A stretch of 64,000 nt of DNA, taken from positions 1 through 64,000 of the forward strand of contig CACHTQ010000003.1 of the NCBI GenBank assembly GCA_902582845.1. Reading direction: 5' to 3'. Within the stretch, counting starts at the first letter, position 1; each line of letters opens with the position of its first letter. The notes beneath the pieces are model-generated. The model saw only the letters and a program-made list of their open reading frames with translations, was not told where the DNA came from and searched no databases. Source of the stretch: an uncultured Pelagibacteraceae bacterium. GTDB lineage: Bacteria > Pseudomonadota > Alphaproteobacteria > Pelagibacterales > Pelagibacteraceae. This document shows positions 27,181 through 29,384 of the stretch, piece by piece. Position numbers and translations under genes: made by a program.

Positions 27181-28320
27181 ATGAAATTTGAAGCCTCAAA
27201 GGCTGCGGCCTTAAATAGATTAAGTAATTTTGTAGAACAAAATCTTTCTGAATATTCTAAACTAAGAAATTTTGACTTTGGTCCAGAAAACAGAACAAAT
27301 ATATCTGGTTTATCTCCATATATTACTCATGGAGTTATCAACGAGAAAGAAGTTATTGAAAAATCACTTAGCAAGTTTTCTTTTTCAAAAATGGAAAAAT
27401 TTATTCAAGAAGTTTTGTGGCGAACATATTGGAAGGGTTGGTTAGAATTACGACCAAACGTTTGGACAGATTACGTAGCAGAGTTAAATAAAATTCGAGA
27501 AGAATATAAAGATAACCAAAATTACAAAAATGCAATAGAAGGAAAAACCAATATTGAATGTTTTAATTACTGGGTAACAGAACTTAAAGAAAATAATTAT
27601 TTACATAATCATACTAGAATGTGGTTTGCTAGTATTTGGATTTTTACATTAGAATTACCCTGGCAATTAGGAGCAGAATTTTTTATGCAACATCTTTATG
27701 ATGGCGACTCTGCATCTAATACTCTTGGTTGGAGATGGGTAGCTGGAATTCAAACACAGGGAAAACACTATTTAGCAAGTGAGTGGAATATCAAAAAATT
27801 CACTAATAATAGATTTAATAATATTAAATTAAATGAAAATGCTCCTCCAAAAGTTTCTGAAAAAACTTACACAATAGTTAAACAAGATTTTAGCAATAAA
27901 AATATAGATGATGAAAATCTTTTTATTTTTGAAAATAGTTTATCATTTGAAACTACAGATTTTCAAAATCATAAATTTAAAAAAATTTATATAATTTTAA
28001 ATAAAAATGAAAATAGATCTATAAAGCTGAGTGAAAAAGTTATTAAATTTAAATCTCTTTTAATTAGTGATCAAAAACAAAGATTAGAAAATAATTCTAT
28101 CAATTGTGAAGTAGTAGATATAAGTGAAGTTAAAAATATAAGCGAAAAAGTTATTGCGTTATATCCAACAGTTGGTGAAAACCTGGATTATTTAATTTCA
28201 AATAATTTAAAAATTGATTTTTTATATAGAAAACTTGATCAATATTCATGGCAATATTGTAATAAAGGTTTTTTTAATTTTAAAAATTATATTCCTAAAA
28301 TAATATCATCTTTAAATTAA
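27181..28320 (+). CDS. Photolyase/cryptochrome-family FAD-binding protein with apparently permuted domain order
   Basis: N-terminal FAD_binding_7-like region (RTYWKGWLE, NHTRMWFASIWIFTL, GDSASNTLGWRWVAGIQTQGKHYLA); C-terminal region ends WQYCNKGFFNFKNYIPKI. Confidence 0.8.
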   Translation: MKFEASKAAALNRLSNFVEQNLSEYSKLRNFDFGPENRTNISGLSPYITHGVINEKEVIEKSLSKFSFSKMEKFIQEVLWRTYWKGWLELRPNVWTDYVAELNKIREEYKDNQNYKNAIEGKTNIECFNYWVTELKENNYLHNHTRMWFASIWIFTLELPWQLGAEFFMQHLYDGDSASNTLGWRWVAGIQTQGKHYLASEWNIKKFTNNRFNNIKLNENAPPKVSEKTYTIVKQDFSNKNIDDENLFIFENSLSFETTDFQNHKFKKIYIILNKNENRSIKLSEKVIKFKSLLISDQKQRLENNSINCEVVDISEVKNISEKVIALYPTVGENLDYLISNNLKIDFLYRKLDQYSWQYCNKGFFNFKNYIPKIISSLN

Positions 28321-28538
28321 AACCACCTGAACATCCCGATAATTGCTGCAGTAGCATAAAAGAATTGTAAAAATAATATTCCTCTGTGACCGCCCCTATA
28401 AGCCCAAATTCCAATTAGGATTGCAGATATAAGTAATAAACAAAAACCAAAAAACTCTATGCCAATATTCATAGCTACAAATAATGAGTATAATATAGCA
28501 GTTATAACTCCTGCCCATTCAAAAATTTTATTATTCAT
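28317..28538 (-). CDS. Small membrane protein, hypothetical
   Basis: Hydrophobic ORF, start overlaps the upstream sORF stop (ATGAATAA). Confidence 0.6.
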   Translation of the reverse strand: MNNKIFEWAGVITAILYSLFVAMNIGIEFFGFCLLLISAILIGIWAYRGGHRGILFLQFFYATAAIIGMFRWF

Positions 28539-28668
28539 TTTCTAATTTGAATTTTTTTCTATTATAAATTTTTTTTTTATTTTTTACTATTTTATTTCTG
28601 AGCATTGGTGAGCTCAATAATTTGGCCATTGGATTTTTCTTGTTAATTTTTTTTCTTTTTTTGCTCAT
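28531..28668 (-). CDS. 45-aa basic protein, ArfA-like (possible alternative ribosome-rescue factor); not in ORF track
   Basis: Hand translation MSKKRKKINKKNPMAKLLSSPMLRNKIVKNKKKIYNRKKFKLENE*. ATGA overlap with upstream GATase stop and 8-bp overlap with downstream ATG. Confidence 0.72.
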   Translation of the reverse strand: MSKKRKKINKKNPMAKLLSSPMLRNKIVKNKKKIYNRKKFKLENE

Positions 28669-29384
28669 AAGAGACTCTTAAAATTATCATATAAAATTTT
28701 TGAATAATTATTCATATCTTTCATATTTTTTTTTACAGATTGATCAAATTTTTCTAATGCGCCATCACCAAGTTGATCCTCGAGTGCCTTTTTATATTCT
28801 GGTACACAACCCCACTCATTAACTGTTGTATCTTTAATCTCTATATGGAATTGGATACCATATGCATGATCTTGATATTTAAAAATCTGATACTTAGTTA
28901 TTGGCGATGATGCTATTAAAGTAATATCGGGATTTTTATCAACCCCCTGAACCTCATAAGAATGCCACTGTAAACTTTTAATATTATCTGGAAATTTTGA
29001 GAACAAAATGTCTTTTTTTTTATTGTCAGTAAAATTTATATCCATCATGCCAATCTCTGCTGGATTTGATTTTACGACTTTACCACCAACTACTTCACCT
29101 AATAACTGACAGCCTAAACAAAAACCTAAATAAGGTTTTTTAAGATTTACTACAAATTCTTTTATTCTTTTTTTTTCTTCAACTAACCAGGGATACTCTT
29201 TTTCCATATAGGTATCCATCGGTCCACCCATACATAACATTCCATCATATTTTGTTAGGTCATTTGGGATTTTCTCACCTTCATCAAGTTCGATTGTTGT
29301 AAGATTTAAACCATCAGCCAACATTAGATCCTTTATGTAACCTGGATCTTCAATTTTAATATGTTGTAAAATAAGTATGTTCAA
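28665..29384 (-). CDS. Class I glutamine amidotransferase (GMP synthase-like)
   Basis: MGGPMDTY, LGFCLGCQLLGEVVGG (nucleophile Cys), YGIQFHIEI. Confidence 0.9.
   Translation of the reverse strand: MNILILQHIKIEDPGYIKDLMLADGLNLTTIELDEGEKIPNDLTKYDGMLCMGGPMDTYMEKEYPWLVEEKKRIKEFVVNLKKPYLGFCLGCQLLGEVVGGKVVKSNPAEIGMMDINFTDNKKKDILFSKFPDNIKSLQWHSYEVQGVDKNPDITLIASSPITKYQIFKYQDHAYGIQFHIEIKDTTVNEWGCVPEYKKALEDQLGDGALEKFDQSVKKNMKDMNNYSKILYDNFKSLL

Follow-up and report, generated by a model that had tools for sequence, protein, structure and literature searches.

The closest described relative of the gene reported here is ArfA (YhdL, PF03889), a ribosome-rescue factor of E. coli. In structures, ArfA residues 15-31 lie against RF2, and P23 is positioned against the decoding bases (PMC5378476, PMC8012679, PMC6299226). 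ArfA makes use of the Trp in the switch loop of RF2. Its basic tail occupies the mRNA channel (PMC6299226, PMC5378476). No single residue of the KGKGS motif is essential in E. coli ArfA, though single changes reduce activity (PMC6299226). A core of 47 aa is sufficient for function in E. coli (PMC5378476), a size that the protein described below shares.

BrfA of Bacillus and ArfT of Francisella are also small, basic, release factor-dependent rescue factors, as is predicted for the product described here. ArfT is reported to be independent of ArfA (PMC6299226), and BrfA is probably so (PMC8012679). A published survey covering over 15,000 genomes reported arfA in 0 of 2,376 Alphaproteobacteria (PMC11633108). 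Earlier papers describe phage-encoded ArfA, one in pelagiphage HTVC027P (PMC12753301) and one in Citromicrobium phage RXM (PMC8953757). Within the open-access literature on ArfA and Pelagibacter, the pelagiphage paper alone was relevant. Its gp30, annotated as ArfA, likewise belongs to a SAR11 virus-host system; it is reported as a PF03889 member and, by its description only, is presumably of the KGKGS type, unlike the gene studied here (PMC12753301).

Here we analyze a 45-aa open reading frame (ORF) from an uncultured Pelagibacteraceae bacterium, located in a 64,000-nucleotide stretch of DNA that we refer to as the window. Our reading, to which we give a probability of roughly 0.8, is that it encodes a KGKGS-less, ArfA-related ribosome-rescue factor that would act with RF2 and replace canonical ArfA in its clade.

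The ArfA-like gene and its neighbors

The original prediction reported a 45-aa ORF, and the ORF is real, with a translation exactly as given there; the strand (minus) is added here. The features of the locus are as follows.

28531..28668, minus strand: ArfA-like ORF of 45 aa, MSKKRKKINKKNPMAKLLSSPMLRNKIVKNKKKIYNRKKFKLENE, based on translation, distribution, PDB matches, dN/dS and shuffles
28579..28635, minus strand: residues 12-30 of the ArfA-like ORF, NPMAKLLSSPMLRNKIVKN, aligning with E. coli ArfA 14-32
28552..28584, minus strand: basic tail of the ArfA-like ORF, residues 29-39, KNKKKIYNRKK, without KGKGS
28665..29384, minus strand: upstream class-I glutamine amidotransferase of 239 aa (PF00117, 2.4e-21), with an ATGA overlap
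28317..28538, minus strand: downstream 73-aa membrane ORF, with an 8-nt overlap with the ArfA-like ORF

In the window sequence, the amidotransferase stop and the start of the 45-aa ORF have an ATGA in common, and the 45-aa ORF in turn runs into the first bases of the 73-aa ORF over ATGAATAA, both as originally described. The proposed coupling of the three genes thus stands in the window but is not universal, as several carriers lack the amidotransferase. In such carriers (e.g. G033/L002 and G398/L045), the ORF lies downstream of a different gene with a gap between them, and the 73-aa ORF begins a few bases after its end. The ArfA-like gene therefore does not depend on being coupled to the amidotransferase. 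The 73-aa ORF is its constant downstream neighbor in the carriers inspected. In genomes G383 and G408, the amidotransferase and the 73-aa ORF are directly joined by ATGA and the ArfA-like ORF is absent from the junction, while in genome G106 the junction is filled by an unrelated 63-aa ORF (L242:1317-1508). This junction seems to accept small genes. Its occupied, empty and differently filled states indicate that the ArfA-like gene was inserted as a discrete unit where the content of the junction varies.

The 73-aa membrane ORF is strongly conserved where present and has a marginal match, below the cut-off, to PF04973 (nicotinamide mononucleotide transporter family; E 0.005). Elsewhere in the window, positions 27181-28320 on the plus strand hold an ORF of 379 aa, of which residues 74-198 alone give a photolyase FAD-binding match, the remainder being unmatched.

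E. coli ArfA and the window ORF have the same order of N, LL, P, R and KNKK, followed by Y and RK in the basic tail. The E. coli core aligns with NPMAKLLSSPMLRNKIVKNKK--KIYNRK of the ORF, with 12 of 27 aligned residues identical. P23, R26 and N32-K34 of E. coli ArfA are kept, and its RF2 patch of L19, L24 and F25 corresponds to L, M and L. In the E. coli protein, residues 14-32 form the segment in contact with RF2 and with the decoding center (PMC5378476, PMC8012679). KGKGS is lost, and the alignment of the tail shows a net loss of two residues; by sequence, the basic residues of the tail are K29, K31, K32, K33, R37, K38 and K39. Because the KGKGS residues are individually non-essential in E. 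coli, the KNKKKIYNRKK tail could take the place of the KGKGS tail.

Unlike E. coli ArfA, the window ORF is alphaproteobacterial, is 45 aa long, lacks KGKGS, has no Pfam match and ends in its own stop codon. An RNase III-type hairpin or terminator, as in E. coli arfA, was not found at the ORF (z -0.95). With its own stop codon and an overlapping downstream gene, the ORF does not have the arrangement for expression from a non-stop mRNA under tmRNA repression; this arrangement belongs to the regulation of arfA in E. coli and does not define ArfA. The 45-aa product contains no RF-1/GGQ peptidyl-hydrolase domain, which sets it apart from ArfB. The KKGGSTNKK motif of ArfT is absent from the ORF, and ArfT is not among its PDB matches.

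Distribution of ArfA types in SAR11 genomes and phages

A protein search recovered copies in three genus genomes, with identities of 87-96%, and these three together with the window ORF make up a four-sequence profile, A1. Of 399 genomes of the genus (SAR11/Pelagibacteraceae), 36 contain the ArfA-like ORF by an A1 match at E < 1e-15.

An ArfA-like factor had been expected to be notable in this lineage. A search of 61 genus genomes with the Pfam ArfA model gave matches above cut-off in 18 of them, with ORFs such as MKKKNLIAKDLLTPKYKTRIVKPKKGKGSFKRKKNNFKA. This canonical KGKGS ArfA adjoins pfkB in the loci read and is present in most genus genomes; ArfA in itself is therefore common in the genus. 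Most SAR11 genomes carry an ArfA-type gene, in KGKGS or KGKGS-less form, in contrast to the published survey (PMC11633108). Canonical SAR11 ArfA (KPKKGKGSFKRKK) comes from the same order as the window ORF, is similar to it in length, has the same NxxAK...K..KK...RKK frame and is recovered by the KGKGS-less profile A5. It differs in having KGKGS, in its genomic site at pfkB and in being absent from carriers of the window type.

The two types have complementary distributions. Canonical matches at E < 1e-5 occur in 267 of 399 genus genomes and the window type in 36 of 399, with no genome having both (Fisher p about 1e-19); the carriers cluster on a pfkB tree, so this p overstates the number of independent events. 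The tree shows at least three label changes, with canonical and ArfA-less genomes within the clade. Among 14 carriers that have pfkB, 13 show the canonical site intact and empty, with pfkB abutting the next regulator; the window genome is one of these 13 (pfkB on contig C3 near 89 kb). The missing canonical ArfA is therefore not an assembly gap. The best explanation for the origin of the window-type gene is that it was relocated or horizontally acquired.

In the complete genomes tested, RF1 and RF2 are the only RF-1-domain proteins encoded; there is no third such protein and no ArfB. An alpha-type tmRNA is found in 14 of 15 genomes, missing only in the incomplete window genome, in which RF1 alone of the two release factors was found. 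In G321 and G033, both carriers, the RF2 sequence contains SPF and IGWG (IGWGHQIRSYVL), with the Trp in the switch loop. Since ArfB is absent from the complete genomes tested, an ArfA-type gene would be the only recognized protein backup to tmRNA. In G408 (1 contig, 99% complete), neither type of ArfA nor ArfB was detected, leaving only tmRNA, RF1 and RF2, which counts against our reading.

Intermediates join the window ORF to canonical ArfA. Across 247 genomes of the order, A5 gave one match in each of 173 genomes. Its matches below the window type include canonical loci that canonical searches had found independently (G012, G004, G063 and G131), and it also finds KGKGS-less ORFs in other genera and in the sister family. 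One bridging form in G426 (MKRNPIAKALRTPKFKKKVIKDKKKYNRKK; MKRNPIAKALRTPKFKKKVIKDKKKYNRKKVKKYF) combines a canonical-like front half with a window-like tail. At the hisG locus (L082, L088), KGKGS ArfA is present in G163 and a KGKGS-less form in G086; the latter scores 12.4 bits against Pfam ArfA, where the cut-off is 25.5. These intermediates connect the window ORF to ORFs above the Pfam ArfA cut-off. The hisG locus is a second genomic ArfA site in the genus, used by both types in different genomes.

The ArfA-like ORF of G426 (L367) matches Pfam DUF7230 exactly at the cut-off (27.0 bits, 4.8e-6), and that of G443 (L370) matches below it. By this sequence match, DUF7230, which is annotated without function, may be an ArfA-type family. 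Among 329 genomes from across the phylum, just 1 contained DUF7230.

Relatives also occur in phages. The phage family phrog_20887 matches residues 11-39 of the window ORF (E=1.1e-5) and canonical SAR11 ArfA (9.4e-6), as well as the G086 and G426 forms. The phage relatives are KGKGS-less with a K.KK.Y.RK tail, like the window ORF, and the related viral proteins found in this analysis differ in having NKVAKELKDRRYHQRVV in the core; the family is annotated without a function. Viral contigs were scanned with degenerate patterns, for which the mixed alignment was too diverse. The KGKGS-less type NKVAKELKDRRYHQRVVKSKKxYDRKK is found in 99 viral contigs. At least 193 viral contigs encode the canonical type, and three that are nearly identical to each other have a window-type copy. 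A tblastn search of the phage collection with three queries gave no match, probably due to short length and the low-complexity filter.

The window-type viral frame (L237:2962-3117, also in L238 and L239) is 76% identical over 29 residues (60/84 bases). It lies out of frame within a 588-aa phage ORF (L237:1650-3416), a possible case of overprinting, and related phages have a free-standing ArfA-like gene in the equivalent neighborhood. A phage-like contig in a SAR11 genome (L085, contig C20 of G190) carries a phage-type ArfA-like gene, and the same genome has a host window-type gene on another contig.

The abundance of the KGKGS-less type in marine viral contigs, where it forms phrog_20887, the window-type copy in phage and the loss of the mRNA-channel motif KGKGS together allow another reading. 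The product could be an ArfA homolog, derived from or modified by phages, that no longer carries out rescue with RF2 and whose binding to the ribosome serves a different end, for example the modulation of translation in infection or resistance. We consider this unlikely, because the ORF fills the ArfA niche in carriers that lack the canonical gene, the product retains a basic tail as well as the hydrophobic positions of the RF2 patch, and KGKGS can tolerate the loss of any one residue in E. coli (PMC6299226). An ArfA-type rescue factor remains the preferred reading.

Evidence for homology to ArfA

Scans of the window ORF against Pfam and NCBIfam gave zero matches, even at E=10, and the ORF does not reach the curated score cut-off of Pfam ArfA (PF03889). 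The HMM search suggested with the original prediction is thus negative for the Pfam model, but profiles built here do reach ArfA in the PDB (177,635 sequences). The window ORF alone has two matches at E<=10, both ArfA and weak (E 0.62). The top six matches of A1 are the six ArfA entries (E 0.05-0.13), followed by GroEL at 0.8. With A5, the matches are the six ArfA entries exclusively (E 0.003-0.007); because some of its members had first been picked up in ArfA-like searches, A5 is not a fully independent profile, a dependence from which the single-ORF and A1 searches are free. ArfA also ranks first for profile A6 and is not found by the phage-only profile A4. Three of four profiles built without canonical sequences therefore rank ArfA at the top, A4 being the exception. 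Canonical SAR11 ArfA likewise matches ArfA (1.7e-5). No BrfA chain is among the matches at E<=10 for A1, A5 or the single ORF, in a library that presumably includes a BrfA structure.

Among composition-preserving shuffles, 0 of 5000 reached the score of A1 against E. coli ArfA, and 0 of 5000 that of A5. Against the window ORF, the score was reached by 1 of 5000 shuffles for the canonical SAR11 profile and by 0 of 5000 for the phage profile. When the canonical profile is cut down to its N-terminal half, the window ORF is not separable from shuffles. Direct sequence links between the window ORF and canonical SAR11 ArfA are weak, as A1 matches two canonical SAR11 genes at E 0.016-0.08, on par with lysine-rich noise ORFs. 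By the PDB profiles and shuffles, the homology spans the core that contacts RF2 in E. coli ArfA (residues about 14-32). The resemblance to ArfA first noticed in the core is borne out as a real homology signal by the PDB matches, the shuffle controls and the order-wide intermediates. Without KGKGS and without a Pfam match, the product is a divergent ArfA-type protein, not a standard ArfA. An AlphaFold model of the isolated product (window-type alignment) has two helices at high confidence; it tells little, because ArfA adopts its ordered form on the ribosome.

A short lysine-rich peptide that associates with ribosomes or binds nucleic acid could match ArfA by composition alone, and the ORF is indeed highly lysine-rich, is unmatched by curated ArfA models and shares the A1 search with other lysine-rich ORFs as noise. 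Such an origin of the match is improbable, since shuffles of the same composition stay below the scores, the top PDB matches of A1, A5 and the single ORF are ArfA only, and graded intermediates lead to canonical ArfA.

The ORF also proved to be conserved within its SAR11 genus, with dN/dS of about 0.07 among its copies in the 36 of 399 genus genomes. Over the core of 31 distinct DNA copies, dN is 0.045 and dS 0.663 (ratio 0.068), with 3850 third-position differences versus 1499 at first and second positions. The ArfA-like ORF is under strong purifying selection, and all 21 distinct core proteins carry KNKKKIYNRKK or a near variant. A spurious, untranslated ORF in AT-rich DNA, as its short length, A-richness and place outside curated family libraries might suggest, is very hard to reconcile with this dN/dS, the third-position bias and retention of the ORF in two different upstream contexts.

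Proposed role in ribosome rescue

By homology with E. coli ArfA, the product as a KGKGS-less rescue factor would bind a ribosome that has run to the end of a broken mRNA and stalled there, with the basic tail KNKKKIYNRKK entering the empty mRNA channel. The middle segment NPMAKLLSSPMLRNKIV would sit in the A site, forming a short helix and strand. A hydrophobic patch of L17, M22 and L23 (E. coli L19, L24 and F25) would face the Trp-bearing switch loop of RF2, and RF2 would then open and, with no need of a stop codon, cut the peptidyl-tRNA. The product would substitute in this SAR11 clade for the pfkB-linked canonical ArfA as a backup to tmRNA. Its relatives occur in marine phages as well as in SAR11 hosts.

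More broadly, we lean towards the view that Pelagibacterales and their phages have in common a KGKGS-less class of ArfA-type rescue factors, including phrog_20887 and possibly DUF7230. This class would be functional without KGKGS, a motif regarded as typical of the family, and would have replaced canonical ArfA in some host clades through relocation or phage exchange. The KGKGS-less type offers a testable function for phrog_20887. Its occurrence in both host and phage raises the question of whether phages bring their own rescue factor, keeping host ribosomes free. The KGKGS-less type also shows what part of ArfA is dispensable in evolution.
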